Of a DNA stretch of 64,000 bases, positions 31,770 through 61,478 are shown one piece after another. Numbering within the stretch: position 1 is the first letter of the stretch; each line of letters starts with the position of its first letter. The notes beneath the pieces were generated by a model. That model made no database searches. It was given only the letters and a program-made list of their open reading frames with translations, and was not told the origin of the DNA. This stretch comes from Mytilus galloprovincialis. Its lineage: Eukaryota; Mollusca; Bivalvia; Mytilida; Mytilidae. The stretch lies in contig NC_134848.1 in the NCBI RefSeq assembly GCF_965363235.1, positions 61,838,181 to 61,902,180 of the forward strand, read 5' to 3'. The translations under genes and the position numbers were made by a program.

Positions 31770-32875
31770 ACTTTTTGCCCAAGATGCTCAATGTTTTCTT
31801 TATTTCTCTTATTTCTCTATTTGATATTATAGTTAACCCTTTTTTAGGGGCGTAAGACAGCTCAGACAATATATTAAAGGACATTTTAACTTTCTAATTA
31901 GTTTTAAATGAGACTCTCAGTAAAAACTCTACTGGTCTATGAGGAGGTTGACATTTTGTGAGGACATGCATTGTATTGCACAAACAAACTATCAGGAAAA
32001 AAAGATATTTGTATTAAAAAGTATATCTAGATTAACATGCTTTCATGTACACAAAATGTATAGCTTACTATACTATGCAATTTTAGAAATTTATCACATC
32101 CGTAATTAAGCTAGGATTTCAAAATGGCATTTTAATTGTGAAATGATTATATGAAAAGGGCATGTTTTAATAAAGATATTAATCAAACATTGTCTAAAAA
32201 ATAAAAATATTCATTGAATCACTGTTTATAATAAACATGATATACACGTAGAACATGAATAGCCCAGATTAAACTATCTGTCTACTTTTTATGCTCAAAA
32301 ACTTGTCAACCACCTTGTCACACACGTTTATAAACATGATAAAGCATTGCTTGTCACAGGTTAGCTTTATATGCAGAATGTTTTGCAGGGTTTCCTGCTT
32401 CATTTTGTTTCTATGGTCACACTTTACAAGTTTAACCTGGGAAAACCCCTTTCTGTCTCTGCTGTGCTTAATGGCAATACAGCAGCTGTGCTCAGTAAAT
32501 TCACAATGTTAGGAGATAGTGAACAGTAAAAATTTGTATTAACATGATTAAAAAAATATGAGAGGCACCCTACCTACCCTACTATAAACACCCTATTGAA
32601 CTTTTCCCATAATTCAAAAGACACAAACATAATAATTCTAAAACCTGAAGTACATGTATGTAGACATATACAATGTATCTCAGAATATCGTAAGTCATGT
32701 AAGTAGGTAACTCAATGCTAGGAAAAAATAAAAACGAGTTACATTGAATCGTCCTTTATTTTTAAAGTTTTGTTATTTTCGTTTTAAAAGTGAGGGCAGG
32801 CAAAGGCAAATATATATCTTACTTTACCATGCAATTTTACAATTTATCACATTTAAGTGCCAATTTATTTTTCAG
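31770..32875. other. Upstream flank of POC5, 5'UTR exon not located
   Basis: The POC5 start codon lies 25 bp after an acceptor, so a non-coding first exon and the promoter should lie here or further left. I could not choose between candidates: there is no convincing TATA box and no CpG-rich stretch. Confidence 0.45.
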
Positions 32876-32899
32876 AATTGATTGAAAATCAGGCCAACC

Positions 32900-35800
32900 A
32901 TGTCTACCTTAGATTTAAGTGAGCCAGAATTGCCACCTGATTCACCTGGAAGTTCAGTATCCACAAGACTTATGGTAAATTATTTCCCTGAATTTTGAAG
33001 GAATGTCCTATATGTTTAATATAATATTGTGTATATATATATATATATATATATATACAACTCGTCTAAACATCAACCCAACAATGTTAGATCTGTAAAT
33101 TTGCTTTCGCAAATTTTTGGTTCTTCCCTCGCCGGGATTCGAACCCATGCTACTGTGATATCGTGACACCAAATCGCCTGCACTGCAGCCGTCCCGCTAG
33201 ACCACACGACCACCTGGGCTCTCAAAAAAAGAGCTTTCGCTGGCCGTGTGTTACCTTTCCTCGTCAGTTTTAATCTAGCGGCGTACTACAGTACATGATA
33301 TATAAGGCATGAAGATGTTATTGTTACAGATCAGCTAAATTATCTATAGTAAAGGATCCTACAAATTATGTCATGTATGTTTTCAATACATAAAATGAAA
33401 AACTGGATGAATTGTGCAAATCTTGAAAATACATTAATTATGGCCCCACCAAGTGGCGGATTGCCCTATACGTCTAGTCTTGTAACAAATGATGTCCTCT
33501 TTTTATCTAGTGACTGTTATGATTTCCTAGTTTATATTTGACACGTATATTAACCAACACCAGATGGTTTCATTACGTATGGACAACTTTCTAGGTCAAA
33601 GGTCAAGGGTCAAAAACTTTGGTTTCAGTTGACAATCCCATGTACAATGGTAAAGATTGTGTTCTTGAGTTCTAACCATTTTATGATTCCAAGTATATAC
33701 TTGACATGAATATTAACCAAAAATAGAGAGTGTGTCATAATGTATGCACAACTTCCTAGGTCAAGGTCAAAACTTTGGTTTTCATTGATTTTCTAAACAT
33801 TGGTAATAATGAATATTTAACTGAATGACAGTATTTGTTGTTAGAATTCTAAGTGTTGATTTATTTACAGGATGAATATGAGGAATTGCTGAAGTATGCT
33901 GTAGTTGTACCTAAATATGATCAGAGCAGATTACCTAAAACCCTAACAGACATAAGAGAGTCTTTTCCTCAAAATAGACCAGAACCTAGACAGGAAACCA
34001 TGGTAACAGTTACTAGGGAGAGACAAACAGGTAGCACAAGTAAAAGTTTGATAACATATACATCATTATGTGTGTATATCAGTTTCAACTTATGTATGAA
34101 TTTGTCCTTGTTTGTACTGGTCCAGTTTAAGCCTTTTATCATTTATTTGTGTTCAATATAATATTTTTATGTTTAAATTCATATATTCAATGTCATTATA
34201 ACATAGAAAAAATCACAATACATTCAATAGTAGCATTCAACATGAAGATAATTACATCAGCTATTTAACATATGTACTGTGGATTCATTTATTTTCATGG
34301 ATACCAATTTTCGTGGATTGAGATAAACTTGCACCTTTGTGGATATTTAATTTCATGGTTTTTGCAAAGTCTGCATATTAACCTTAAGGAAATATGTAAT
34401 TCGTTGATCATTTAAATTCGTGGTTCTCCTGTACCCACGAAATCCACAAAATTTGGTATCCAACGAATGATAATGAATCTACAGTAATTTATGTATGTCT
34501 TTAGATGCTTACACTATATATCATGGTTTAAATTGTTCCTCATGTGAAAACATTAATAAGCAAAGTCATGTTAAGTTATGTTTTAATAGACCACTTTCAA
34601 GTTCATCCGTCACCGGAAAAAAATCGTCAATTATATGTGCCTTTATGACATCATTTACCAGATAGAGGGGTTGCCTGTATCCCTGCACTATTCACGTTCA
34701 ACAAGCGTCTTAGTGATCGCTATTGTGCAGGATAAACTAGAAATAATGTTTGTTCCGTAGGTACTTAATGACAGTGCCTTAATGACAGCAATGCTGATTG
34801 TCAATTTTGAGAATTCAATTTCCCAAATAATTCGTACAACATAAAATTAAAGTTTTCCAACCATTCGCTCAACATTGGAATGGAAGTGACGACGCCCCTA
34901 AACGCACAAATGACATTCAGAGTTTTTGACGGAAATGCATCGAACTTGAAAGTTGTCTAATAAACAAACACAACATATTATATATACTGAAAATGCTTCC
35001 ACTATTTTGAGTCCATATCGACACAAAAGACAAGTGCATGGCAAAATCTGACTGACTTTCTGAAACAATACTATAAAAATTCAGTACTTATGTTATTTGT
35101 GAACAAAACAAAACAGTTTTAACTATAACCACTGGTGTGGTCACTTCCAAATCCTGGATAACTTACATGACTTAAACCCAGTGAAATTAGCTTGTATTTA
35201 TTCTGACCACCAAGTCAAATATTGATAATCGTTACACAACCTATTTGAAAGCCTCATATTAAGATCATTGCACAATCTTTCAAACTGTATTTACTTGGTG
35301 CACATAAACTCATTTACACAATATATTATGCACATTCCGTAATGGTAGAATAAAGAAACCATGTTACTTTTACTGCTAGCACCTGTAATCTAAGTTTTTA
35401 CATAGAATTATTATGCTCAAATGTAAAACAACAAATGCAGTTTAAGTACAATGTACTGTCAAATTTGACACACATTTTGTTCATTACTGATATATTCATG
35501 TGTTACAGATTCTAGTTCCAATCCTGTCATTGTCAAGGTAACCAGAGAAACAGGGTTACCAGATTTTGGAGGTCATAGTCCTATAGGAAGTAAACATGAA
35601 GATGACAGACTGAATGATGATACAGGGAGTGTTGAAGAATTCCTTACCAGAGACAAAGGTAACTATTGGTTAACAGGGAACTCCTCCAGAGACAAAGGTA
35701 ACTATTGGTTATCTAACATTCTAAGGAACTCCTCAAGAGACAAAGATAACTATTGGTTATCTAGGGAACTCTTCCAGAGACAAAGGTAACTATTGGTTAA

Positions 35801-38800
35801 CAGGGAACTCCTCCAGAGACAAAGGAAACTATTGGTTACCTAAAGAATTCCTTACCAGAGACAAATGTAACTATTGGTAAACAGGGAACTCTTCCAGAGA
35901 CAAAGATAACTATTGGTTATCTAGGAAACTCCTCCAGAGACAAAGGTAACTATTGGTTACCTTAAGAATTCCTTACCAGAGACAAAGGCAACTATTGGTT
36001 ATCTAGGGAACTCCTCTAGAAACAAAGATAACTATTGGTTACTGTGAAAGTAATTTTATTCTTGGGGTACCAATATCGTGGTTTTCGTGAACGACTTTAT
36101 CCACTAATTTAAGTGTCCAATGAAATAAAACAACCATTGTCCAAATCAAGACATGGAAAGATACCCATGTACGTTTGACTATTGTTCTGATTTAGAGAAT
36201 ATATTGAATAACGCCAAATCTGATAATACTATAATATTAGTTACAGGGCTAATGCACTATGAACTACAACTGCATGCAGGATTATATCCATTTAATCTTA
36301 AATAACCTAAACTCATAAAAATATTTTTGATCGATGGAAGTCAGCTTTCTGGTATTGATATGCTAATATGATAAAGTGTTCATGTTATATCCTCATAGTT
36401 CTCGTACATATGGGAAGAAATAATTTCATGCTGGGCTTGATTTTGATAAGAATATATATTGTCCTTCGTAGAACATATATTGCACTTGCAAGCTCGGGCA
36501 ATATAAAATTCTACTCCGGACAATATTCATGCAATAATCGTATAATATACCAAGACAAGCAAGACTAGGTATAGCAGTACTGTTAGGAGTATTAGTACAA
36601 TGTTAAAGTTGGAAAAATTTGTTTTGTTGAAGATTCCCCAAATAGTCAAAAAATAACATAAGGACCTAAGAGCTACAGTTCTGCAGCTATCTTAGACTAC
36701 TAAATATGGCTGATATACATGAAAATTGTCATGTAATACATGTAATAATCTATAGATATTGTTTTAAAAAAAAATTATTGCTTGCTTTTGTAGGAAAACA
36801 GAAAACACAAAAGTTCTCGGCCCCCCAATTTTTGTCCCGTGTGACAGATGGACTTGATAAAGAAACCAGTCGGATATCTCAGAAAGAAACCAGTCACTTA
36901 TCTCAGAAAGAGGTTGAAATAGAGGAGTCAGAATATAACTTTACAGCAACAGTGGACCAAGATGTTACTAAGATGGAAAATCTCATGGACCATTGGTGTC
37001 TGGACCTGAAAAGAAATGTCATGGTAACAACATGTTACATATAAGGCTTTTATTCTCAACGCTCAAATTTATACTTGTTTGGCTTTCTAACTATTTTGAT
37101 CTGAGCGTCACTGATGAGTCTTATGTAGACAAAACCCGTGTCTGGCGTATCAAATTATAAGCCTGGTACCTTTGATAACTATTCTATCAAATTGTATCTT
37201 CAAGTTGGTTATTTTTTTGATCTCATACTGCACATGCACTGTAATGAAGTGAGCTGTGTCAAATATTAATCGACCTTATGCAAATGAATAAACACATCTT
37301 TTAACCTATTTCATGTTGAAAAAATCTCTGAAAAAACTGTAATAGTTTAAAGATTGAATTGGTTTTTTATAAGAACCAAACAAAACATAACTCATCTACA
37401 ACTATTTTTTCGTAATTGATTGTTCCAAAATCAATCAAAGTCATGTACATGTATATGTAAATATGTGCACTTACATAAGGATGATTTCTGTCCGATGCAG
37501 CTCAAGTATTGTCAAAGGAGTTTTAATTAAAGGTTATCTGCTTGAAGGTGTTCAATTTTATATTTCTTCCAAAGGACTTATTATATTGGTTTATCATATA
37601 TTTAGTACAGCAATTTTGTATATCTAATAAAGGTTCTTTTTTCCAGTCTGTATCACCTACCCTGTATCACATAGCTAAACCCGTATCGCATACCCCGTAT
37701 CGCATACCTGGCGTGACGTCATAATTTAAATGACGTCAACGTTTGACCTATGACGTCCAGTTGCTGCATTTTCAGGCTTAGGGAAAAAATGATTTCTATT
37801 AAAAAAAAACGTCCTATCATTTCAACTAAAATCGATTTTTTTCCAAATAATTATTACCCAGTAACTTGACGAGCGATTTGTATTTAAAATAATTTAAAAA
37901 GTTTGTTTCTGCACAAATGCATTTTTTTACAATTTTAATTTGGTTTTAAAAAATATATGATAAACAGAATAATACATGGCAAAATCCGTATCACACGCCG
38001 TATCACCCTCGACCAATATCATCCCTCGGGCCTAAAGGCCCTCATGCTGATATTGGTATCTCGGGATGATACGGCATATGATACGGATATTGCCATGCAT
38101 TATTCTCTATATAAACAATAATGGAAATGTCAACATTTGTATAACAGAAAACTTTGGCAAATAGTATTTTCTTCCAAATTTCCTTGCTTTTTTTTTTATT
38201 ATCTTTTTTATCAACTGGCACATTTTTAAAGGTTTTTTTTACCCTGAAAATATTTTTTTTTTTTTTTTAAGTAAATAGAGAAAATGTACTAATTGCTGAT
38301 AAAACCAAAATTCTGAGTTATAGCGAAATAACTTGTATTACAACATGTTACCAATAGAGGTGATTGGGGAAATTATTTGCTTAAAGAATAAATTAATTTG
38401 GTGCTGAAACAATTCTATATATAATACGATAGTATTTTCATCAAATTGACTCACATTTGTAGGCAGAATTCAGCCAATCCAAAATCAGAATTGTGGAACA
38501 TGGAAGACAACAGCTAATCAGAGAACAAGAAAAGTAGGTTCTCTAATTTTTGTGTTATTTTCACATTTCCTGACCGGTGTGAGAAAAATATTTCTCCTCA
38601 CTAGTGAAAAATCTGTTCTCAGCAAATGATTGGTTGAAATTTAATTATGGCGTCAAAATGTTTTGTTTTCTTCTGAATTTTCCTATTGAGACGTCATGAA
38701 AAAAGGCAACCATGCCTGATGGTGTCGCATATAAAGAACACAAGTTTCTGAAAATCTTTGAAAAAGAATAATAAAAATCATCAGAGAAACAGATTCCGAC

Positions 38801-41800: not shown

Positions 41801-44800
41801 TTATAAATTGATTCCCCATGTCAAAAGTCATTCATTTTCTCATTTGATTCGTTAAAAAATATTGTTTCAGATTTTTGCTGGCAAACTAGCAGAAAAACAT
41901 TATGAGAGAAAACTATCACAGAAAATCTGGGATTCTTGGCATTCAGTTATTGTTGATAAATGGCGCCAACGAGTGGAGAAGGCATGTCAAGCCAAGGCAC
42001 AGGAAGTCTGCATCAATCTCACAAATGAATACGAGACTAAAGTCAAATCGGTATGTTAAATTTGATTATTATTAATATCTAAAACACATATTTTAATTTT
42101 ATTTTTAATTTTAGTTTCTTTTATATTTTTCAGAGTTTAGTATGACATCCATTATCACTGAACTAGTACATATGTTTGTTTAGGGGCCAGATAAAGGACG
42201 CCTCCAGGTGCAGAATTTCATCTCTGTATTGAATACCCATTGGTGGCCTTCAGCTTTTTTCTGCTCTTCGATCGGGATGTTGTCTCTTTGACACATGTAT
42301 TCCCCATTTCCATTCTCAATTTTATTATTGTGATACTGGTGAATATATATATATATATATATCCATTCCTAATTATATAAACATATGTTTTGAATGTTTA
42401 TGAATGCACAAAGTTTACATTTCAACAAAGACAATGGTTTCTAAAATGTTTTGCATCAATTTAGGATTTTGATGTCAGAGCTTTGGTCTTGCATATCATC
42501 CTAACAAAAATGTCCTCCTGATTTTTTACAGCAACTTTAATTTGAAAACAACCAATTGTTGTGCAGGAAAGTTGAAATAACCTACTCTAAATTCAAAAAT
42601 TGTTGCCATGTTTTTATTATTGCCAAAAATTATAATGGCATTAATTTAAACTGGCATTTTGATTTTTTTTATATGACTTAAACAGAATTTTTCGCAATAT
42701 TGCAAAAATTAAAATCACATTTTTGTGGCAATCATAAATGCACACAATAATTTCTGAATTTACAGTATTGAAAATAAGGCTCAGATATTTTTTCTCTTAA
42801 TCTCTCTTATAAGAAAGTTTAATTGGCTCTTTGTGACCAAGATGGAAGCAAAAAATGTATAGGATCATCAGTCGTCAGGGTTTTTTCACTGCATTTTTGT
42901 GTTAAATAAATATGATGACCTATAGCTGTCAATTTCTGTGTGAGTTGGTTTCTTCTTGAGAGTTGCCTCAATGTTAATGTTACCACATCTTTCTTAATTT
43001 TAAATACAATTGTAACCAATGGGAAGTAACTCCAACTTTTTAAAATTCTTTAATGTACAGTTTATATATATGATACTTATTATTTTAAAATCACCAATAT
43101 TTATTAATGAAGTATTCAGTTATTCAAGTACCTAAAAACGTCAGAAAGGAAACAAATTACAGTAAATTGAAAACAAATTTATACGCACAAAAGTATTTTT
43201 AGCAAGTCATAATGAAACTTATTGATTTGAATCTTAGTCATGTTAGTGATGAATTCTTTTACAATTTTTAAAGGTAAGAATATATGTCTGAGAAGGAATT
43301 GAAACAGTTTTATAGGATGTTTTACCTCAAATCTACTAAGGTTTCAAAAGACTTCTAAATAGTCTTTTTCCAGAAATCAAGAAACAATGTTAATGTTCAT
43401 GTTTAACATGTGTAATAAACATAGTATTTGAGACCAAGCATTTCAAGACAAGAATTCATAAAATTATATTTTTTATCTAATTATTTTGTGTCTGATGACT
43501 ACATTTGTAGGCTTTTCATTTTGTATGGGATGTTTATAGTATTCCTTGTATCATTGCAGTTAACAGAAGCATTAGAGGAAGCCAGGACAGAAGTGTCAAA
43601 GTTACATCAAGAACGTGATCGTTATGAAGAAACCATGAAAAAGGCTTTCATGCGAGGAGTGTGTGCCCTCAACCTTGAAGCTATGACCATGTTTCAACCT
43701 CAAGATGACCAGAGACCCGAACAAGGTAAGGTTGTAATATGTTATTTTCCATCACTTGAATTTTGAAGTTTGTCAACAATTTAAAGAAGTTATATGTTTT
43801 CCCTTAACATGCTTAATTATTGAGCATAAAAATAACATACTGTGGATTCCTTAATATTCGTTGGATACTAATTTTTGTGGATTTCGTGATTTCGGGGGAA
43901 TCATGAATTTAAATATTCAACAAATTACAAATGTTATAAAGGAATGTATGCATACTTTGCCATAACCCAGAAATTAAATATCCACCATATGCAAGTTTCC
44001 CTCAAACCACGAAAGTTTGTACCCACAAAAATAAATGTATCAACAGTAATTGAAAAAATAATTCTTTTTGCATTGGTTGATTGATGACTATCTTGTGGCA
44101 CCCAAATTTTATTGATGTAAGGAGCCCTAGTGTCTTTATTGATGTAAGGAGCCCTAGTGTCTTTATTGATGTAAGGAGCCCTAGTGTCTTTATTGATGTA
44201 AGGAGCCCCAGTGTCTTTTGCTTTGAGTTCTGTCAATTTTCAATCAAGAATTAAGACACCAGATTCCTTCCTTTTGATTTTCACTCAGGAACATAAACAC
44301 ATGAACATAAACACAAACACATTGACATCAACATTATTTTATTAACAAAATAAAATAAAGAGCTTAAACACAAAACTTAATATATTCTAATATCGACCTT
44401 ACTTCAGATCTCGAAATCCAAGGTTAAAAACATGATATCCTTAGGTCCCGAATTTAGAGAAATTTAACACCACAAATCCCAACATCCTGCAATTTGAAAC
44501 AAGAATTTCCAGATTCCAAAATGATCAATATCGAAATCCAGAGCTTTAAAACACCAATCCCACCAATCCCACCAATCCCAGAGTCCACATAAAGGTCCAC
44601 CCAACCCACACACCCCATCTATAACTTACCGATAAATATTAAACTTTGTACCTGCTATAGTTAGCACATTGTAATAGTGATTTTTTATTATTTAAGGTCC
44701 TGGCGGTCACATATCTTCAGATTTTTCTGACAATCTTAATGGTAGTATACCAGAGAAAGATTATAGTGCTCCAAAAACAATCCCCCAGGAACCAATATAC

Positions 44801-46574
44801 ACAACAGATCCTAGGAATGACCTGGCACCGCCAAAAATAATCACCAGTCAGGGAGCCAGACCTTCATCAGCTACAAGTGTCAGGTCTAAAGCATCGGTGA
44901 GTATATTATAAAGGAGAGAGCATGAAGGGTTGTTCCATTAATCATGCATAGTACAGTGACCTACCATTCACACTGGGACATAGTCTGATAAATCATAAGC
45001 ATCCTTGATGTCTGACATTGGTTGTCATGATTTTTGGCTTGTATGCTGACTTTGGTCAATACAACGAATCAAATGCCCATGAAAAAACAATTTTTCATTG
45101 ATCCATGAAAATTTGTCCAAAGAAAATAGATAAATTCACAGAACATTTTAAATATTAATATAAAATTATTCTATAGACATTGTTGCATGTTTTTTATGGA
45201 CCACGTCAAAACGTCAAGGTCAGTCTATTTAAACATGTTAGATATCTTTAAACATGTTAAATATCGCTTCTCTTATTCAGTTAAAGTAGTAAATACAACT
45301 TTTTATGTTATCTTCTAGGTATGCAGTAAGACTAATACAACATCTTCCAGTAAAGGAAAAGTGTTGTCTACCAGAATTACAGCCAAGACCGACTCTGGAC
45401 GTACCACATCTAGTTTGGGCAGAAATCCTACCCTTGACCCTCCAATGAGTTCTGTTATTGTAGAAAGACATCCTCCGGTTAATAAGGTAAAGTAATGAAA
45501 TAACTAAGATGTTTTTATTATTGGGAAAAATTAGACAGGGTTATAATCGCAATAATTTACACTCTCATTTTGTAATTTTTTTTATGAATTAGACAGGATT
45601 TTTCTCAATATCGCAAAAATTATAATCGCATTTTAGTCTAAAATGACAAAATGGCAATAATACAACTTACAACTACATTAAGCACCATGTGTCGCATAGG
45701 ACGCGAACGAAAGGGCAATAATAAATGCACCCAATCATTTCTTAATTTACAGTAATGAAAAGGAACTGTGTGTTAGAAGTTTCCTTTGTTGAAAGTCAAA
45801 TTTCATGAATTTGCATTTTTATGTGAGAAAAAAATATTTTTTTTAGAACCTTAATTTTTTATTTGACTAAAGTATTTTGTTTTTATTTTCCAACTTCTTT
45901 AAAAAAAACAACATAGTGAATCTGAACAAAATATTAAAAATTTTCCCCCTTTCCGAAATTTTGCAGAAAAAGGAGGTGAATATTCATTTCTGGATGAAAC
46001 TTAACCATAAAGTACTGGTAACAATAGAACAACAATTAAAAAAAGATTTAGGAAAATATCTGACAATGAAGTACCAATAGTATTTCACTTCACAACTTTA
46101 AAGTTAACATCAATAAGAAAAATGTTTATATGTTTCGGAGTTTAGTGTGATGTCCTTTTTCACTGAACTAGTAAACATTTTAGTTAAGTGCCAGCTGGAG
46201 CCCGCATCCGGATGAGGGATTTTCTGGCTTAGTTGAAGATTCATTGTCAGCCATGGGTTGTTTTCTGCTCTTTGGTGAGCTTGTTGTCTCTTTGACACAT
46301 TCCTTTTCTCAATTTTATTAGTTGTCTTTTACATTATTGAAGCTGTTCAAAATGCTTTCATGAAAAATAATGCTGATGAATTTTTTTACATATATATTTA
46401 AACCACTATCTATTTTAGGAAACAATCGGACAGGCAACAGCAGGAAGACATCCACGACAAACATCAACCATAGAGAACTATACACAGGCAGGAATCATTC
46501 ATCGGCGGATTGCTGGACAATCTGGTTCCGTGACGATATCACCAAATATACAAACTGTTAAAGTTGTTGACTGA
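32900..46574 (+). CDS. POC5: Centriolar protein POC5 orthologue (11 coding exons)
   Basis: Coding exons: 32900-32974, 33871-34030, 35509-35658, 36794-37023, 38463-38533, 41397-41595, 41871-42050, 43560-43725, 44697-44896, 45319-45486, 46419-46574. They sum to 1755 nt, 584 residues plus TGA, close to human POC5 (575). Every junction is GT-AG and keeps frame. POC5 binds centrin in the centriole lumen and is needed for centriole elongation and the inner scaffold. Family features seen: N-terminal DEYEELLKYA (26-35); three Trp-centred Sfi1-like centrin-binding repeats around Trp196 (KMENLMDHW), Trp285 (KIEMLKKFNEW) and Trp318 (IWDSWHSVIVDKW); coiled coil across 210-380; the signature MKKAFMRGVCALNLEAM from 381; a Ser/Thr/Pro-rich tail; PPMSSVIVE; and a C-terminal KVVD as in vertebrates. 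An acceptor AG at 32874-32875 implies a 5'UTR exon upstream that I could not place. Possible poly(A) signals: ATTAAA 46706, AATAAA 47032. Exon 5 is 71 nt, so skipping it breaks frame. Confidence 0.96.
33032..33222 (-). mobile_element. tRNA-derived SINE with (TA)n tail
   Basis: Read on the minus strand it has a pol III A box TGGTCTAGCGGG (33193-33204) and a B box GGTTCGAATCC (33135-33145), a non-tRNA body with the hairpin AAATTTGCGAAAGCAAATTT, and a (TA)n tail at 33032-33057. It lies in POC5 intron 1, antisense to the gene. Confidence 0.85.
34275..34486. mobile_element. MITE copy 1 (TACTGTGGATTC family)
   Basis: A 212-bp element in POC5 intron 2. It begins TACTGTGGATTCATTTATTT and ends with the inverted counterpart (aatgaatctacagta). 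The interior keeps phrases such as 'ggataccaattttcgtgg' and 'cccacgaaatccac'. Two more copies of almost the same length lie in other POC5 introns. Confidence 0.85.
34587..34959. mobile_element. TIR element (TAGACCACTTTCAAGTTC family), about 373 bp
   Basis: The left end TAGACCACTTTCAAGTTC and the reverse complement of the right end TAGACAACTTTCAAGTTC match at 17 of 18 bases. Both flanks read TAA or AATAA, consistent with a short AT-rich target duplication. It lies in POC5 intron 2, 100 bp after MITE copy 1. No ORF. Confidence 0.7.
35640..36046 (+). repeat. Minisatellite derived from the POC5 exon 3 end and donor site
   Basis: About ten units of 38-47 bp carry CCAGAGACAAAGGTAACTAT and TGGTTA. 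The first unit is the real junction: exon 3 ends ...AGAGACAAAG at 35658 and the intron begins GTAACTATT. Later copies keep a GT donor in some units (for example 35698 and 35786) and lose it in others (GATAAC, GGAAAC). Confidence 0.92.
37060..37190 (+). repeat. Dispersed repeat (gagcgtcactgatgagtctt)
   Basis: 'gatctgagcgtcactgatga', 'gtcttatgtagacaaaaccc' and 'gtctggcgtatcaaattata': I recognise it as a frequent mussel repeat. It lies in POC5 intron 4. A weakly related piece is at 63850-63960. Confidence 0.6.
37966..38106. repeat. Palindrome 1: 141-bp near-perfect hairpin (POC5 intron 4)
   Basis: The left arm (AGAATAATACATGGCAAAAT, then CCGTATCACACGCCGTATCA) pairs with the right arm ending GATACGGATATTGCCATGCA then TTATTCT. 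The centre folds as GGGCC-taaa-GGCCC inside CCAATATCA/TGATATTGG. Confidence 0.9.
38815..38927. repeat. Palindrome 2: 113-bp near-perfect hairpin (POC5 intron 5)
   Basis: The left arm ATTACGATATTTCTCCACTC matches the reverse complement of the right end, and the match continues through cgacagtttaattttaatta to a short loop around aagctcggcaagctt. Arms are about 48 bp with few mismatches. Confidence 0.92.
39513..39681. repeat. Palindrome 3: 169-bp near-perfect hairpin (POC5 intron 5)
   Basis: Arms of about 75 bp: AGAGATAACTGTATTGTATT then tgaagcttttgcggacgtcc, mirrored by ggacgtTcatcgg and the inverse ending AATACAGTTATCTCT. The loop is GC-rich (ctccgctccgcgtcgcc). Confidence 0.93.
39756..39965. 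mobile_element. MITE copy 2 (TACTGTGGATTC family)
   Basis: A 210-bp copy in POC5 intron 5, with TACTGTGGATTAATTATTTA at the left end and aatgaatccacagta at the right. It starts 75 bp after the large palindrome at 39513-39681. Confidence 0.85.
40150..40420 (+). repeat. Dispersed repeat, plus copy (partner at 22820-23110)
   Basis: 'cataatcacatggcaaaatc', 'cctgacttggtacaggcatt', 'ggattgaacctggttttata' and 'acaacgatgcgtgaacaaaa'. It lies in POC5 intron 5. Non-coding. Confidence 0.8.
40985..41037 (+). repeat. 26-bp direct duplication
   Basis: aaagtgcacaggtaaattaa then attaa occurs twice in tandem without mismatch in POC5 intron 5, 60 bp before palindrome 4. A recent duplication. Confidence 0.9.
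41095..41244. repeat. Palindrome 4: 150-bp inverted repeat (POC5 intron 5)
   Basis: AATGCTTCTTTTTGTAACTT at the left mirrors AAGTTACAGAAAGAAGCATT at the right. Inside, gttgttaaagccttgaccg mirrors cggtcaacgcttttacac, with a small duplication (ttttacacc twice) in the right arm. Less perfect than the other three. Confidence 0.8.
41620..41770 (+). mobile_element. Truncated copy of the (TCGT)n dispersed element
   Basis: 'tatgccccatatatgggcat' followed by a short TTCG/TCTG tract and 'gttaaagtttttggtcgagg', matching the element at 57.7 kb. It begins 25 bp after the donor of POC5 exon 6. Confidence 0.75.
42131..42331 (+). repeat. Dispersed repeat copy A in POC5 intron 7
   Basis: Shares 'gagttta', 'cactgaacta', 'ttttctgctctt', 'ttgtctctttgacaca' and 'tctcaattttatt' with 46137-46318. 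The end resembles the 'ttgtctcattggca' repeat family. Confidence 0.75.
43838..44048. mobile_element. MITE copy 3 (TACTGTGGATTC family)
   Basis: A 211-bp copy in POC5 intron 8, with TACTGTGGATTCCTTAATAT at the left and an inverted end (atgtatcaacagta) at the right that is more diverged. A 27-bp tandem repeat begins about 60 bp downstream. Confidence 0.8.
44112..44222 (+). repeat. 27-bp tandem repeat, four copies
   Basis: ttgatgtaaggagccctagt plus gtcttta, four almost identical units in POC5 intron 8. As 27 is a multiple of three, the minus strand shows a repeating nine-residue ORF (Asp-Thr-Arg-Ala-Pro-Tyr-Ile-Asn-Lys), which I take as an artefact. Confidence 0.92.
44543..44582 (+). repeat. 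Short (accaatccc)n tandem repeat
   Basis: Three to four 9-bp units, accaatccc, in POC5 intron 8 about 120 bp before exon 9. Confidence 0.75.
46137..46318 (+). repeat. Dispersed repeat copy B in POC5 intron 10
   Basis: Partner of the 42131 copy, slightly shorter. It ends 100 bp before the acceptor of POC5 exon 11. Confidence 0.75.
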
Positions 46575-48329: not shown

Positions 48330-48855
48330 CCTATGATTTCAGTGGCAGAATAACTTGATTTCAATGTCAGAAAAATTAGATATAAATGTTCGAATAACTG
48401 GATTTTAATGTCTGAATAACTGAATCTCAGTGTCTGCATAACTGAATCTCAGTGCCAGAATAACTGAATCTTATTATGTGTGAATAACTGAATCTCAATG
48501 TCTGAATAACTGATTCTCAGTTTCTGAATAACTGAATTTCAGAGTATGACTAACTGAATTTCAGTGTTTGGATAACTTGAATTCTGTGTCTGAATAACTA
48601 GAGCTCAGTGTCTGGAAAACTGAATCTCAGTGTCTGGAAAACTGAATCTCAGTGTCTGAATGACTGAATATCTGTGCTAGAATAACTGAACCTTAAAATG
48701 TGAATAACTGAATCTCAATGCCTTAATAACTGAATCACAATGTCTGAATAACTGAATCACAATGTCTGAATAACTGATTCTCAGTTTGTGTCTGAATAAC
48801 TGGATCTTTGAATAACTAGATAATTGTGTCTGAATAACCGGATCTATGTCTAAAT
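48330..48855 (+). repeat. 22-bp minisatellite (aataactgaatctcagtgtc), first block
   Basis: Roughly 24 units of aataactgaatctcagtgtc plus tg, diverging at 10-30% of positions. It is downstream of POC5 and non-coding. It is interrupted at 48861 by a GGATCC-type element. Confidence 0.92.
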
Positions 48856-49039: not shown

Positions 49040-49520
49040 AAATGAATCTGGGTCTGTATAAATTGATCTCAGGATCTGAATAACTGGATATATGTGTCTG
49101 AAAAGAAACTTGATATCTGTGTATTATTATCTTAAATTACCGGATATGTCAACAACTGGACTTCTGTATGAATAAAGGGATCTTATTTTAAGAACAAGTG
49201 GAATCTTAGTATCTGTGTCTAAATAACTGAATCTATGTCTAAAAACCCGAATACGTGTCTAAATAAATAAATCTGTGTCTGAATTACGGAATCTGTGTAT
49301 ATTTAACAGAATTTGTGTCTAAATAAACGAATCTGTGCCTATTTAACAGAATGTGTGTAAATAACCGAATCTGCGTCTAATTAACAGAATATCTGTCTAA
49401 ATAACCGAATCTGCGTCTAATTAACAGAATATCTGTCTAAATAACAGAATCTGTGTCTAATTAACCGAAAATGCGTCTAAATAACCGAATCTGTGTCTTA
49501 ATAACTGGATCTAAAAATAT
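49040..49520 (+). repeat. Minisatellite, second, more diverged block
   Basis: Units of about 20 bp (tctaaataaccgaatctgcg and variants) continue the 48.3-kb array after the nested insertion. They contain higher-order pairs near 49370-49450, where a 50-bp block is repeated almost exactly. Another two units follow the LINE at 54133-54180. Confidence 0.85.
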
Positions 49521-49798: not shown

Positions 49799-52700
49799 TT
49801 ATATAACATCTTGTCTTATCCTTAAACAGTCTATGATAAAGTTTGCCAACGTTTTCGGGTTGCTGATTAACAGTTCTTTTAGTGTTTCTTCTGGGGAGTC
49901 AAAGTCAACTGAGATGAGTTCTCGTCTGAGTTCGCTCCTTCTAACAGAGTAACGGTTACACAAAAACAAAAAGTGGATTTCATCTTCAGTCACATTGGAG
50001 TTGCACACTTTACAGATTCTCCGGTCGGCTGGAATATTTCGATATCGACCACGTTCGACTTCTAAAGGTAGTGTACCGCATCGAATTCTAGCTATACTCG
50101 ATCGCTGTTTTCTGGACAAGAACTTTTTAACATACGGTTCAGTACAAAATTCGGTCTTAAGTCACTTGTATGTTCTTAGTTTTGGCATGTTCTGAACATT
50201 AATAATCCATTCACTTTTAAAAGTATCTACCAGTTTAGTTTTAACGGATTCAATTACGTATTTTGTTGAGATCGTATCGTGGTTGTTTGTACAGTTAATT
50301 AAGGCTGATAGACCACTATTGTTCAATATTGTTTTAACACTGTTGAACCAGGTGTTCTTGTAGCGTGTGGAAAGATCGGTATCACAAAGGAATACTTTAC
50401 GACTGATCCTGAAATCAGACAATTTCATAAGTCTACACCATAAACGAACTATATTACATTGATTGTTTACAAATATAGAAGTCCATCCCATATCACCTGT
50501 TATTGCTGGAATCGGCGAGGTTTTTCCAACACCCAAGAAAGTTCGGATTGCTCTATACTGGAGTCTTTCAAGTACATCAAAACGCTTTGATCCCCACACC
50601 CCTGACGCATAGTCCATTACAGGGATAACCGTATTTTCGAATATCTTTGTATATGTAGCAAAGTCCATATTACCCATATGAATGTATTTTGAGGTAAGTG
50701 ATCCAAGCGCTCTACTAGCTGCTGTTGAGAGCTCTTTCACAGAAACAGCGTAGTCCATATCTTCGGATATCATTAAGCCTAGATAGCGGTATTTATTTGC
50801 AAAATCAATCCGGGTATTTCCAAGCATAAATTCTGAATCACATCTAGTGGCGGAAGCTTTCCGAATATGCATGATCTTCGTTTTATCAATATTGACATGT
50901 AAACAAAATAACTTTGTCCATTTATGTAGAGTTTCCAGCTGAGTTTGTAAACCATGAACACTTTCAGATATAAACACAATATCATCTGCATACAGTAAGC
51001 AACTGACCATATCATTTCCAATTGGAACTCCATAAGATAGACTGTTAATCTCTGGCACTAAGCTGTCTATGAATAAAGCGAAAAGTGTCGGAGCGAGGTT
51101 GTCACCTTGACGAACACCAGAATCTATTGAGAACCATTCCGTGAGTATACCAGGCGATAATCGGACAGCAACTTTTAGTTTTGAATAAAGACATCTGATC
51201 GTTTTGAACATATTCCCAGATATTCCTGAACTTAAAAGTTTATTCCACAAGATAGTGTGGTTGACCGAGTCAAACGCTTTACTAAAGTCGACAAAACATA
51301 AGAATGTATCCAAATACATCAGTTTTCTATTTCGCAGAATTGTGCACAAAGAATAAATATGATCAAGACATGACCTTAGACGCCTAAATCCATTTTGTTC
51401 TTCGCTCAGTAAATTGTTGTTCTCGAGATATCTTACAAGTCTTTCGTTCATTATTTGACTAAAAACTTTAGCGACAGTTGACATTAGACTTATGCCTCTA
51501 TATCCCAACGGGTCACGATAATCCTTTCCGTTCTTTAATATCGGACAAATAATGCTTTGACACCACATATCAGGTACTACACCATGTAAGAAGCAAACGT
51601 TATATAACTCATGAAGAATGGAAGTCAAATTGTTACTTTTTAAAATTTCATTGGGGATGTTGTCGATTCCAACTGCTTTGCCATTCTTTAAACTTTGCAA
51701 TGCACGTTTTGTTTCTTCCAGTGAGATCGGATCGTTCATGAGTTGTAAATCCGTATCAATTGTTTCGGTAGAAGGATTGAGAGCTTCATATTCATGTTCT
51801 AACTGTTCGTTTAGTTGCTGTATTTGCTCAATAAATCCAGAGTCGGCTTGCTGGATCTCGCTGGAAAAGAGTTTTGAATATTCCGACTTCCATCTAGACA
51901 AAATATCATTTGGGTTACTAGAGACACTTCCATCATCCATTATCACGCTATCGATATTTGTATTAGCTTTTCCCGGACCAAGTTTATTTACTTCCCGCCA
52001 GAACTCTTTTGGATTAGTACGGTTAAGTGTTTTAATATTATTAAGTCTCTTAGCTTTATATTTCCGTTCTTCCTGGCGTAAACGTTTGTCAAATTGTCGC
52101 CTTTTTTCTTTAAATGTGTTTTTCAAATTGTTTTTCAGTCGCCTGTCTCCTTTAAAATGTAAATAGTTTTTCTCTGCTTTGTTCGTAATTATTAATAAGT
52201 CTCTTAATTCGTTGTTCCAGTATGGCTTTGCGTTTCGTCGTTTGTGTTTGTTAGAGCTTGGTGTGAAGTCTATGTAGTCCATGTTGTCGTCCATTTCATT
52301 GTGAAGAGCGTCAATGAGGGTTTCATAAATAGTGTTTATTCTTCCGCCAATGTTACGAACATCAAGTATTGAGTCAACCACATGTTCAAGACACCTTGTG
52401 CATCGCTCACTCGCGAATAAACCTTGTGGTATTGCGGAAACATTATATTTACGTGAAGATTGATATTTCATACCTTTAGAGCTAGTTTCACATCTATTAA
52501 GCCTTTCGTTGCGGATTCTTTCATATTCCGAGATATTTAGTGTACAAGTTAATATTGAGTGATCCGGTATTCGTGAGTTCGTTGCTAGTTGGATGTCATA
52601 ATCAATTAACAAGGAAGAAATCAGTTTTACTTCAAAGTTACAAACATTCGGAAGTACTGTGTATGGAACAATCATATAGTCAACTACTGATTTCCCGATT

Positions 52701-53392
52701 GGTGAAACATACGTAAAATCGTCCTTTGAGGGATCCCCACGCCCATTTAACATGCAACATTTTGAGTCCTTCAAAAAGTCTAATAAGAAATCACCAAATG
52801 CATTCCGTGTGTCGTCTATAGGTTGGCGTGAAGGTAGATGATCTAGGGAGTCATTAAAATCCTGAAGACCTCCAACTCGCCCATTAAAGTCACCGCATAT
52901 AAAAATCGGATTCTCAGAACTATACAGGTACATTTGAGAAAGAAGATAGTCATAAAACTCCTGTGCAATGTTACCTCTACATGATCGTTCGGGTTGTAAA
53001 TAGCACACGCATAAATATATACATAGATCTGGGTCATGCTTCCCTTTTAAATAAATCCATAAGATGTCATCTCTACTATCATCTAGAATATCAACTTCAA
53101 AATTGTCATAAACTGAGTTTTTTACTAAAAATCCGATTCCCCCACTTCCACGCCATGCCTTGTTTGAAATTAGTTTTCTATTATTTCCAATCCATTTAAA
53201 ACCTTCTAGAATTAAACTTTGATCATTTCTCAAATGACTTTCGCAAATTCCAACTATATCATAGTTCATTGCCGTTAAAATATTTTCCCTTAAATTTCGA
53301 CTATCATCATTTTGTCGTGTCATATACCAACCATTACAATTCCAACTAGCTATGTTTAATTTAGCATCGTTACTATTTGACTGGCTTAAATG
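49799..53392 (-). pseudogene. LINE ORF2 endonuclease-reverse transcriptase with one in-frame stop
   Basis: The frame is open from the codon after the ORF1 stop (53392) to TGA at 50162-50164, then continues in the same frame to TAA at 49799: about 1198 codons with a single nonsense codon. N-terminal AP endonuclease: ASWNCNGW (upstream of the first ATG at 53323), GICESH, ICGDFNGRVGG, VVDYMIV and the PDHS catalytic histidine motif. Reverse transcriptase: LKNGKAVGIDNIPNE, GYRGISLMS, QNGFRRLRS, FVDFSKAFD (51269-51295), SGVRQGDNLAP, and the catalytic YADD at 50981-50992. After the stop the knuckle has CKVC...HFLFLC (C-X2-C-X9-H-X4-C). The TGA probably arose by point mutation, though readthrough cannot be excluded. 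No RNase H domain is seen. Confidence 0.9.
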
Positions 53393-54120
53393 TTAATTTG
53401 TTTTCTGAGTTACACGTCCGCCCTTGAATTGGAGCGCTGGAATAGATTTAATTATTTGTCTCATGTTTGCTTCATGCATTCTTTCTTGTCGCGAGCGGTC
53501 TGTTTCTATATAGATGTTTTTGTACCCATCAATGTCTTTTAATTTCGTTTGTTCTTCAGGACGTCTATGCGTTGCTTTTCGTCTGCGAATGTGACAATGA
53601 CTGGTTTCGGACGTGATGTATTGCCCGCGTTAACTGTCCCGTTATTAGGATTACCGATCCGTTGAGCGTTGACTACACTAAATTCTAATCCTAAAGCATT
53701 TAACAGTTCGGTAATATATGTCTTTAGGCCATCGGTATCTACACCATCGGATTTAATGTTTTTAAATACAAGTTTTGACTGAACACTTTCCTCGATGACG
53801 GTCGATTGTGTATTGACAGTAGCTTGTTGATTTAATTCAAAATTAGACATCTTAATTTCTAATTCCTTTATTTTGTTATCAACCTGGGCGAATTCTAATG
53901 ACATTTCATCTTTTAATGTTTTCATATTCATCTTTATTTCGTCTGTAAATTTTATTTCCATGTTTGTAATTCTCTGTTCGAGAGACATTCTCAGGGAATC
54001 TTGATTTTGTTTAATTGTCATCATTAACTCATAAAGGTCATTATTGGATATCGTGTGATCAGGCTGAGGCTGGGAATAGGTTTTCTCTGGATTGAAAGAC
54101 ATAGTTAGGTTTATTGGCAA
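53393..54120 (-). pseudogene. LINE ORF1 (nucleic-acid-binding protein), frameshifted near its 3' end
   Basis: From the ATG at 54118-54120 the frame runs 193 codons to TAA at 53539. Residues about 30-105 are a long heptad-rich coiled coil; residues 115-190 look like the RNA-recognition part of L1-type ORF1 proteins (KLVFKNIKSDGVDTDGLKTY, then PKPVIVTFADEKQRIDVLKN). Just before the stop, another frame continues with convincing coding sequence (KLKDIDGYKNIYIETDRSRQ, ending VTQKTN) to TAA at 53393-53395, so a small indel around 53545-53560 broke an ORF of roughly 240 codons. In LINEs this protein coats the RNA and chaperones target-primed reverse transcription. Confidence 0.8.
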
Positions 54121-54180
54121 AGAATATATGAAAGCTGAATCTCAGTGTCTGAATAACTGGATACCGGTATCTAAATAACT

Positions 54181-57325: not shown

Positions 57326-60300
57326 ATGAAATTCAGGATTATTTTTGTGACGATCCTATATATAAATATAACAGGTAAGCTCAATAAATGACAAAATTGG
57401 TCCAGTAACAAGAGCTTGTAACTTTAATTATATGTACAATGTCACAAACTATTTTGCAGGATTGCTTCCCTTGATAAATGTAGTAGATACTTAGCCAGCC
57501 ATAAACGGTTGAGTTAAAGAAGTAATTCTTTGGCTCAGTCGGTATACGCACTGCCTTGTATCACAGAAGTCCGGGGTTCGAGTCCAGTTAGAGACGAAGA
57601 TAATTCTATAAGAAGAATTATGCTCTCCGTTACACTATCATGTGGGGTTCATTTATCCCGGTATTATTTTTTACAATAATGACGTCTTGAATGCAATAGT
57701 TTGCTTTCTATGCCCCATTTAAGGGCATTATGTTTTCTGGTCTGTGCGTCCGTCCGTTCGTTCGTTCGTCCGTCCGTTCGTTCGTTCGTCCGTTCGTTCG
57801 TCCGTTCGTTCGTTCGTTCGTTCGTCCGTCCGTTGTACCGTCCGTCCGTTCGTCGTACCGTTCGTCCGTCGTACCGTCCGTCCCACTTCATGTTAAAGTT
57901 TTTGGTCGAGGTAGTTTTTGATGAAGTTGAAGTCCAATCAACTTGAAACTTAGTACACATGTTCCCTATGATTTGATCTTTTTAATTTCAATGCCAAATT
58001 AGAGATTCCCCAAAGGTCCACTGAACACAGAAAATGATTGTGCGGATGGGGCATCCGTGAACTAGGCGGACACATTCTTGTTTTCAGAAGTTTTTTATAC
58101 CTCCATTTTCCGTACTTTTAATAAGCAATGAAGATAAATTTGACTTCGACAATAACTAAGTACATTTCAATTGCAGTCATGTCATTTTTATTTTCTTGTA
58201 GCGCAGTATTCTTTATATATAAAAGATGAAACCGTTTCAACAGAAAACAAGGGGGTTAACCAAAGTCATACGATCGACCAGTTACACATACAGAATACAA
58301 CACCAATAATCTCCAGTGAACGCGATTCTGTTTTACAAAGACCCGAAACGTTGCCGAGTACAAACATTTCCAGGAAAAAGCGTCGACGTCGGCGGTACGA
58401 TTATGAAGACTCACATGACTGGAATTACGATTTGGATGATTTAGATTACGACGAAAATAACGTGAGTACTACTGACTAATACATGTAATAGTGATGCTAG
58501 GCTTGTTCCCTCCATGTAAAACTAGTATTCAGCTTGCCTCCGAACTACACATGTATTGAAAACTTGTAAAAAAACAGCCGGGTAATCGACTAGTATGCTG
58601 AGTCATGCTTCTTGTCTTACATTGGGCTGTCGATCTATTAGGATAGAGAAGTAATTTATAGAACTAATATAATATTGATATAATAGTGTTTCGTATGGTC
58701 ATGGTTATTTTGTAGATTTGTTGTACCGTAAGTATCCTAGAAATAAAAAAAAAAAAAAAAAAAAAAATCAAAATCAAAATCATGCCCGCAATCTGGCGTT
58801 TACCAGGCGTAACTTGTAATTTTCGGTCCAGTTCCGGCCATTAATGAATGATGATATGTTTTAATACATAACAGTGACAGGCGTTGATAAAAGTGTTTAA
58901 CTTGGCGTAAATTGAAATATGCCAGTTGTAAATTTAGATTTATGTATATACCACTTATGTCAAATTCAAAAGGGGAATCACTCTCATATATACTAGTAGA
59001 GTCTCAGTGTCGCTTCGGTTAAAATATACCGGAGCAGCTTGAGGATTAAACAAGCAATTTGAAGAAGATTAATTGTCGATTTCTTGTACGTTTGAAAGAA
59101 GTTGTGCACACAAGATAAACAGTGTTCGGGGAGAAAACTCTTACACAGATTTTTCCACTTTAAATTGATAGGGTCAAATTTAAAAGCGGTTAAACTGTTC
59201 TTTAACATATACCAAATAATTACACTCTAGAAAAATCGATCCGGCCCAAAGTCGATCTGTCCCAAGTCGAACCGGCCCACGTCGATCCGGCCCTACGTCG
59301 ATCACGTTAAAATTAATTGTGTATCAGCTTGAGAATAGGCTTGTGCCGTTGTTAAACACTTCGTTATGACACAGGATGACACTTATAAGGATCACAGTCA
59401 ATTGAAAATAATGCTGATTAATGTTGATTGCTGTTGATTGTACTAAATTCTTTTATAGTATGTTTTTATTATAATAATACCCAATAATCTTGAAAACTTA
59501 TAATGAAAACGTTATTAACATAGTTGTTTTATATTCATCCAATGAAAATATTCGTCAAAGGCCAACTTTTTTTAACGGTACAGCTTTCACATTATTATAA
59601 AATTCATAAACATACATCTTCCTTTTTATTCCTTATAAATATATTTTTTTATTGGGACCGGATCGACTTTGAATATGGGGCCGGATCGACGTGGGCTGGA
59701 TCGACGTGGGGCCGGATCGACATGAAAGCCCACACATCTACCGCAATAAAAAAGGTATTAAACTTGTCTTGTAAGATCTCAATACTTCCCTATAACTTTA
59801 GAAAATGTAAAAAACATCACAGCTATAAGCACTCAGTTATTATAAGCACCGCAATTATTTAATCATTTACTTGTACATTTAATTTCAGAAAGAAGCAATG
59901 ATATCTGTCATAACAAAGAACTGGAAAACACTGTTATTTAAAGCATTTGTTTGTTTATGTTTTTTCTGCTTCATTGTTTGTTGTTGTTACGTGTGTTGTA
60001 AGAACATGTGCCGGACCATCTGTGCCTTCTGTGGTCTGTTCTTTTCTAACTGTTTCAACATATGTAGACTATGTGGATGTATCAAGGACGATCCTGGTAC
60101 GTATTTTTCATGTTGTGTGGGCGTATATGGGATGAGTCAGGTACTTATTTTTAGGGACGATCCAGGTACGTAGTTCTTAAGTGATGTGGACGTATCAAAG
60201 GTACGATACAGGTCCGTATTTCTTAAGTTATGTGAACGTACCAGGGGACGATCCAGGTACGTATTTCTTAAGTTATATGGACGTATTAGTGAACGACTCA

Positions 60301-61038
60301 GGTACGTATTTCTTAAGTTATGTGGACGTATCAAAGACGACCAAGGTACAGAGTTTTTAAGTTATGTGGGGCGTATCGGGGGGGGGGGGGGGGGCGATCA
60401 AGGTATGATTTTCTTAAATTATGTGGACGTATTAGTGAACGACTCGGGTACGTATTTCTTAAGTTATGTGGACGTATCAAAGACGACCCAGGTACAGAGT
60501 TCTTAAGTTATCTAGGGCGTATCGGGGGCGATCAATGTATTGTTTTCTTAAGTTATGCGGATGTATCGTGGACGATCTATGTATTCTATAGCTACCCATT
60601 TTAATATAAATATGGTAAACAATATGTATAGATGTAGACGTTCTTAACAATATCTGTAGACGTTCTAAACAATATATGTAGACGTTCTAAACAATATCTG
60701 TAGACGTTCTAAACAATATCTGTAGACGGTCTAAACAATATCTGTAGAATTCTAAACAATATATGTAGACGTTCTAAACAATATATGTAGACGTTCCGAA
60801 CAATACATGTAACCGTAGATGTTCTAAAAAATATATGTAGACTAGGTGGTGCGTTTTAACCTTTTCATTATCTTCAGAAATCATGTTATTTTTAGCTTAC
60901 AACCAGATGAAGTTTATATGCAAAGCTATGGGAATGGAACTTGACTATAAGACCTACCAGAACATGAAGCAAAGTCTTGAAGAGACAATTATAGAACAGG
61001 GCTCTGATCCGAACAACCTAGCAAAGATAGCGGGCTAA
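57326..61038 (+). CDS. Orphan single-pass membrane protein, Cys-rich juxtamembrane (4 coding exons)
   Basis: Coding exons are 57326-57374, 58202-58461, 59889-60096 and 60878-61038 (678 nt, 225 residues plus TAA), all GT-AG and in phase (1, 0, 1). I recognise no family. Seen: a short signal peptide (1-17, MKFRIIFVTILYINITA); an ectodomain (18-113) with N-glycosylation sequons at Asn36, Asn48 and Asn71; a polybasic run KKRRRRR at 75-81 resembling a proprotein-convertase site; an acidic Tyr/Asp stretch at 82-101; a membrane segment about 118-140; and 15 cysteines between residues 125 and 167, inside and just after the membrane, suited to S-acylation or metal binding. The soluble tail (173-225) is mixed-charge and helix-prone. 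A type I topology is inferred. A poly(A) signal AATAAA lies at 61148-61153. The introns are full of repeats, and the exon 3 end is the seed of a minisatellite in intron 3. The splice model is by eye, without transcript support. Confidence 0.72.
57515..57650 (+). mobile_element. tRNA-like SINE head
   Basis: The A box TGGCTCAGTCGG (57531-57542) and B box GGTTCGAGTCC (57575-57585) fit consensus exactly and are 44 bp apart, as in a true tRNA. The T stem and acceptor stem do not pair, so it is more likely a SINE than a working tRNA gene. It lies in intron 1 of the orphan membrane gene. The 3' limit is uncertain. Confidence 0.6.
57708..58075 (+). mobile_element. Dispersed element with (TCGT/TCCG)n microsatellite
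   Basis: It starts 'tatgccccatttaagggcat', runs into about 130 bp of TTCG/TCCG repeats (57748-57885), then 'ttaaagtttttggtcgaggt', and ends 'gatggggcatccgtgaac'. A shorter copy lies in POC5 intron 6. The long ORFs on both strands here, rich in Arg/Ser/Val or Thr/Asn/Glu, are artefacts of the microsatellite. Confidence 0.75.
59230..59730. mobile_element. Inverted-repeat element with GTCGATCCGGCCC subrepeats
   Basis: The left side (59236-59305) carries four or five copies of a 15-18 bp unit (GTCGATCCGGCCCA and variants). The right side (59655-59730) carries the same unit inverted (GGGGCCGGATCGACGTGG). The AT-rich middle has no ORF with a domain. It lies in intron 2 of the orphan membrane gene. 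Confidence 0.7.
60075..60575 (+). repeat. Minisatellite derived from the orphan gene exon 3 end and donor site
   Basis: About ten units, usually 44-45 bp, of the form ttatgtggacgtatcaaaga then cgacccaGGTACGTATTTCT. The first unit is the end of exon 3 (tatgtggatgtatcaaggac, gatcctG) plus donor GTACGT at 60097. GTACGT is intact in at least five units (60097, 60166, 60257, 60302 and 60449). A run of 17 G interrupts at about 60368. Confidence 0.92.
60618..60845 (+). repeat. 22-bp tandem repeat (gtagacgttctaaacaatat)
   Basis: About ten units of gtagacgttctaaacaatat plus two variable bases, with small length variants, in intron 3 of the orphan membrane gene. It ends about 30 bp before the acceptor of exon 4. 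Confidence 0.9.
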
Positions 61039-61478
61039 ATACAACAAGAATAGTAAACCATTAAAGTTGCACGGAATCCAGAGAAAATTTATAGGTTGAC
61101 GCAGAGAGTTAGATTCGATCCACACGAAAAACATGTATACATTAGCAAATAAAATCAATCAAAATAAAATAAAAATAGGATGAAGCCAACTATAGGAATG
61201 ACAGCAAGAAACTGCAAAAAAACATGAGCTTAGACTATTATTATGACGAAAGATTATGTTATGAGGTTTCCTGCAATAAAACTATTTCATCACTACCTAC
61301 TGCAAAATCGAAAAGAATGGTTTTGTATGGTTAAAACAAATAAAATGATTTGTTAAATTATTATTTGTGCATAATTCCACAATAGCATTTGTAAGTTCTC
61401 CTCTTAACACGCACCATGTTGTAATCAGGAAACAGATCGGTAGGAACGATGTCAGAACTATGTGTCCGGGCAGGGACC

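Follow-up and report, generated by a model that had tools for sequence, protein, structure and literature searches.

How does a minisatellite come to lie across a 5′ splice site, and what does it leave for the splicing machinery to choose from? The question is raised by a small gene, predicted to encode a membrane protein, in the 64-kb stretch of DNA analysed here (the window; G+C content 32.6%), where the end of exon 3 runs into a tandem array of units of about 45 bp. An array that crosses a donor amounts to a natural experiment in the choice of a 5′ splice site, in that near-identical sites compete within one intron, and the copy number of such arrays may vary between individuals. If they were commoner at donors than expected by chance, they would offer a simple route to longer introns and to short in-frame protein tails.

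A tandem array across the exon 3 donor

The gene occupies 58202-61038 on the + strand, and in translation its exons 2, 3 and 4 share one open frame. Exon 2 (58202..58461), whose 5′ edge was placed by eye from the TTTTCTTGTAG acceptor, is open, ends at the donor AAC/GTGAGT (58462) and passes into exon 3 in phase 0. Exon 3 (59889..60096) encodes a hydrophobic and cysteine-rich stretch, its product ending in ...CRLCGCIKDDP, and finishes in phase 1 at CTG/GTACGT. Its join to exon 4, GAC GAT CCT G/GTACGT ... CTTCAG/AA ATC, keeps the frame continuous; exon 4 (60878..61038) is the last coding exon by translation, with a TAA stop at 61036-61038, and AATAAA is found 3′ of it at 61148, 61163, 61275 and 61339. 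The exon 3 boundary at 60096 is a prediction based on frame continuity across exons 2, 3 and 4; among the 19 GT sites in phase 1 that were listed for 59900-60180, those at 60097 and 60166 alone reach 9/11 in U1 pairing, and the next best reaches 6. As to the protein family, the Pfam model PBP1_TM matched below its cut-off (E 0.00047, 20.8 bits against 27.8) over a basic and acidic stretch, and we have taken this match as a matter of composition. Intron 2 holds 15-bp arrays of TCGATCCGGCCCAAG (59236-59303) and of its near reverse complement (59676-59721), about 370 bp apart.

The tandem array in intron 3 is real: TRF reports a period of 45 and 9.2 copies at 60154-60577, and by alignment the first units reach back to about 60070, inside exon 3. 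The exon tail, with its donor GTACGTATTT, is followed by about 11 degenerate intronic copies. When the units are aligned at the donor position, there are 12 in-register sites from 60097 to 60581 (a 13th listed site, 60201, is out of register and was excluded from the 12). The first unit has an exonic part of 27 nt (60070..60096, + strand), assigned from the unit alignment and a 22/25 match, and holds the predicted 5′ splice site of a coding exon. The match is between exon positions 60070-60094 and 60465-60489, and none of 500 dinucleotide shuffles gave one as good. The intronic part of the array, with the 11 further in-register sites, was placed at 60097..60590 (+ strand) from TRF, the site list and the unit alignment, its end being set by eye (the TRF end is 60577). 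Within it TRF also finds a 146-bp higher-order duplication, two copies at 91% identity (60244..60528, + strand).

An earlier note on this DNA had described the end of exon 3 and its donor as the first and founding unit of the array. We can support the former, in the sense of a 5′ edge unit, and not the latter. Against the intronic consensus the exon unit matches at 37/47 positions and the 11 intronic units at 28/47 to 44/47. The middle units are mostly nearest the consensus, at 38 to 44 of 47, except for one that bears a poly-G run and has the lowest value of all (28/47), and the outer units are more diverged, at 37, 33 and 33 at one end and 36 and 31 at the other. Edge units are usually among the most diverged in minisatellites, and the position of the exon unit does not establish it as the founder.

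Predicted donors and reading frames

The hexamer GTACGT is kept at five of the 12 in-register sites, namely 60097 (the exon's own donor), 60166, 60257, 60302 and 60448, which agrees with the earlier note's figure of at least five units. We scored U1 pairing as the number of matches, out of 11, to the consensus MAG/GTAAGTAT. The exon donor and the sites at 60141, 60166, 60212 and 60448 score 9, and those at 60257 and 60302 score 10, so that seven sites of at least 9/11 lie within 60097-60600 with the exon's own donor counted; further units retain donor-like sequence. For comparison, the whole window holds on both strands 36 sites scoring at least 9, of which 12 lie inside the two arrays considered here (this one and that of the POC5-like gene, below; both exon donors counted), and nine sites scoring at least 10, of which six lie inside the two arrays (exon donors counted).

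When six downstream donors were translated, only the second GTACGT donor (60166..60171, + strand) proved both in frame and open: its use adds 69 nt, or 23 residues, with no stop, and an in-frame TAG follows just beyond, as the earlier note had claimed. The donor at 60141 is open and shifts the frame, and those at 60212, 60257, 60302 and 60448 lie past a stop. Judged by frame, an isoform could be made through 60166, and among the donors tested it is the only one predicted to give an intact alternative protein; use of the wider ladder is likewise a prediction. A more general proposal, that a 45-nt unit length preserves the frame between many units, is weak. The steps between successive sites are 44, 25, 46, 45, 45, 44, 57, 45, 44, 45 and 44, and because only five of these 11 are multiples of three, the proposal is correct for those five and the unit length is not a general frame-keeper.

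The remainder of intron 3

Intron 3 is 781 nt long and about 92% tandem repeat (494 + 222 = 716 nt, with the array ends placed partly by eye). The earlier reading missed both this near-total repeat content and a second array, of 22-bp units, at 60628..60849 (+ strand), for which the TRF end of 60811 was extended by eye to take in a last copy that resembles the exon. This copy, 60830-60849, matches exon positions 60057-60076, just upstream of the first array, at 18/20, which was equalled in 0 of 500 and 0 of 1000 shuffles. The margin is thin: the score of 30 compares with 29 for the top scorer among 1342 strand-tiles in the rest of the window, and a query cut down to what lies upstream of the 45-bp homology scores 25, a value equalled by 12 of 1284 strand-tiles. 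On this similarity a common source for the last copy and the exon stretch is likely. The 22-bp and 45-bp consensus units themselves share only a 10/11-nt match, with a score that 17 of 1000 letter shuffles reached. We also considered that the terminal 22-bp copy might extend past the donor into the original start of the intron, and rejected this, as 166 of 1000 shuffles did as well. The nucleotides of intron 3 in neither array are 37 between the arrays and the last 28 before exon 4; the latter (60850..60877, + strand) comprise a branch-like TTTTAAC, a pyrimidine tract and the CAG acceptor, identified from sequence and frame continuity.

Origin of the array

We think it probable that this is a minisatellite of the ordinary sort, which arose when sequence across a donor was duplicated in tandem and which left a ladder of competing donors behind it. 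In the history that we propose, a segment of about 45 bp over the exon 3/intron 3 border (some 27 nt exonic and 18 nt intronic) would have been duplicated in tandem and would then have expanded within the intron into a minisatellite by slippage or unequal exchange. Constraint from coding and from splicing would have preserved the exon copy, while the other copies drifted and were partly homogenised, presumably including one duplication of a three-unit block. The nearby exon stretch probably seeded the 22-bp array, and as a result almost the whole intron would now be repeat, leaving as unique sequence the branch point, the pyrimidine tract and the acceptor. Because each unit would have carried a donor, intron 3 came to hold a ladder of U1 sites. 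The first donor would give the main protein, 60166 could give the form that is 23 residues longer, and donors further down would lead to a stop, with the RNA probably going to decay.

The direction of this history, from exon to intron, we infer from the coding sequence: the cysteine-rich pattern of the protein runs on into the repeated stretch (CRLCGCIKDDP), and this favours the exon as the source. In the reverse case, the array would have arisen in the intron and the exon would later have been extended by adopting one of the array's donors, so that its last residues would be intron-derived. Such a capture would fit the quality of the donors, since those of the array are among the best U1 matches of the window and the array-side exon donors of the two genes score 10 and 9, compared with a range of 6 to 9 among the remaining ten predicted donors (the 9 being reached by one of them); it would fit, too, with six of the 11 intronic units being nearer the consensus than the exon unit is. 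However, it does not account for the cysteine-rich pattern continuing across the repeated stretch, nor for the apparent recurrence, at 60830-60849, of exon sequence that lies upstream of the 45-bp homology. We consider capture unlikely, and retain duplication out of the exon as our model.

A second gene and the question of chance

The window holds a companion case, in a gene with exons predicted from about 32875 to 46574 that we take to be POC5-like. The name rests on motifs, since no Pfam model was matched above cut-off by a 179-aa piece put together from three predicted exons. Predicted exon 3 of this gene (35509..35658, + strand), assigned from frame and phases, ends at the donor AAG/GTAACT (35659). 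This donor lies within the first unit of an array (35634..36041, + strand) that has 40-bp units and a higher-order unit of 121 bp, identified from TRF and from copies of the exon end; its start was moved back by eye from the TRF start of 35647. Within the intron, the last 24 nt of the exon recur at 100% identity at 35964-35987, and a further copy at 35843-35865 has 23 of them, again at 100%, so the earlier note was right that two genes in the window have this event in common. Of four downstream donors tested, that at 35698 adds 39 nt in frame, that at 35786 is open and out of frame, and those at 35867 and 35946 lie past a stop. The two arrays are alike in that the first unit of each includes about 25 exon nucleotides and a single alternative donor is in frame; they differ in that the POC5-like array has a 40-bp unit and exon-end copies that are still 100% identical.

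A common origin of the two arrays was looked for and rejected: the best match between them is 11 nt, equalled by 14 of 200 shuffles, and by as many for the reverse strand. When the two consensus units are aligned in register with softer scoring, the score is 14 against a mean of 7.1, with 28 of 2000 as good, and we take this score to be driven mostly by the donor itself. As sequences, the units appear not clearly related.

Other features of the POC5-like gene and its surroundings may be recorded here. A predicted coding exon carries a 24-bp tandem duplication at 36859-36911 (KETSRISQ / KETSHLSQ). An intron has a 27-bp array at 44108-44218, 4.1 copies at 98%, whose unit holds GATGTAAGG and through which a frame is open on each strand. 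At 35690-35760 neighbouring units of the donor-spanning array fold together as RNA with a donor in the stem (z -3.85, one of 200 shuffles as good). Elsewhere in the window, a non-LTR retroposon on the minus strand has Pfam RVT_1 and Exo_endo_phos matches above cut-offs (50165-53392). One long frame of its region, 50165-54141, encodes both endonuclease and reverse transcriptase, and upstream of that frame another is open. Near the retroposon, and close to each other, lie arrays of 22 bp (48335-48807) and 20 bp (49211-49505), with units GTGTCTGAATAACTGAAT and GTGTCTAAATAACCGAAT that are alike by eye.

From the two cases the earlier note had suggested that a recurrent mechanism, not chance, was at work. 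Our placement tests used 10 arrays (at least three copies, period at least 15), obtained from 45 overlapping TRF rows by merging rows of the same array, with starts moved by eye to 35634 and 60070 and ends to 60590 and 60849; they used 12 donors and 13 acceptors, our own predictions on the + strand for the two genes of the window. All of these tests are post hoc, in a window where both cases had already been noticed. With starts extended by alignment, two of the 10 arrays begin across a predicted donor. The chance of at least two arrays with a donor in the first unit is P=0.0015 with random placement, 0.0010 with exon interiors barred and 0.0088 with five arrays kept within genes. For donors in the first unit or acceptors in the last, the values are P=0.0063 and 0.0058. 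When an array need only overlap a predicted donor or acceptor somewhere, P is 0.006 with exons avoided and 0.168 with free placement. All of these values depend on the two array starts that were shifted into exons by hand; with raw TRF starts one of the 10 arrays has a donor in its first unit (P=0.054). By positions, a downstream copy with a score of 30 or more was found for about 3.6% of 3000 positions drawn at random, which for two of 12 donors corresponds to P=0.066. In the mirror search at exon starts none of the 13 acceptors scored above 20, compared with 48 and 31 for the two array donors.

These figures bear on the suggestion that tandem duplication starts preferentially at donors here through a splice-linked process, for example via RNA:DNA hybrids or template switching. 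The first-unit tests and the silence of the acceptors speak for it; the raw-start, by-position and free-overlap values, the post hoc choice of cases within one 64-kb window and the possibility that exons merely tolerate arrays at their edges only speak against it. Template switching as such gained no support from any test run, and donor hairpins as a shared cause were rejected, since of six stretches folded, five, at z -0.35 to 0.57, were no stronger than shuffles and only the POC5-like stretch at 35690-35760 stood out. Because P varies with the null, from 0.001 to 0.17, and the tests are post hoc, we leave the claim of a recurrent mechanism open, leaning against it, and regard a splice-linked mechanism as very unlikely. 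The broader generalisation, that minisatellites here arise by preference across 5′ splice sites, with introns growing out of the ends of the exons before them and bearing ladders of donors in competition (intron 3 being almost entirely of this making, and both genes having one early in-frame donor), seems to us likewise very unlikely, if a shade less so. That intron 3 was itself born by repeated duplication of an exon segment with a proto-splice site would suit its high repeat content and the two tandem-repeat introns reported as gains in fission yeast (PMC3629103), but we regard it as very unlikely too. The acceptor has its own pyrimidine tract, and the end of exon 3 has no similarity to exon 4 and the following bases (as good a match came from 245 of 500 shuffles), although under the simple AGGT model the same exon segment is expected on both sides of the intron.

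Comparison with known systems

Duplication across a donor, our preferred origin for the exon 3 array, has relatives among described systems. Among the titles listed in a literature search that took in few subscription journals, none concerned arrays across donors in bivalves or a genome-wide survey of them. In fission yeast, SPOG_01682 and SOCG_00815 have introns made of 24-nt tandem repeats similar to nearby exons, with an AGGC proto-splice site in the units (PMC3629103). Those introns were identified as gains by comparison of related species, whereas intron 3 is known here from one sequence, and the exon following it is not similar to the repeat. A review has covered intron gain in which exon segments that bear AGGT are duplicated (PMC4974935).

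Among molluscs, an abalone TSSK1-like gene has an intronic minisatellite with a 27-bp unit and a copy number that varies between individuals (PMC6905558), so variable intronic minisatellites are known in this phylum. Its likeness to intron 3 is that of a molluscan gene with an intronic minisatellite. Coding repeats and separate splice choices have been described for a prawn lectin family (PMC7536079).

The closest likeness is to the human gene IFI6, although in unit length the two differ, 45 nt for the exon 3 array against about 12 nt in IFI6. The exon 3 array is further set apart by the 27 coding nucleotides that it takes from the exon and by the second array that follows. The multiple donors of the minisatellite in IFI6 (G1P3, 6-16) were reported by Turri, Cuin and Porter (1995, Nucleic Acids Res 23:1854). 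Three mRNA species arise from that gene, with two of the repeat units further downstream acting as donors (PMC4526556). Donor use is thus reported for IFI6, whereas in the exon 3 array it is only predicted. Both are minisatellites that supply several splice donors, putative ones in the case of the exon 3 array, which shares the anatomy of IFI6 and lacks the exon 4 similarity expected under the simple AGGT model. By this analogy, a minisatellite across a donor is an arrangement of a kind already known from one human gene.
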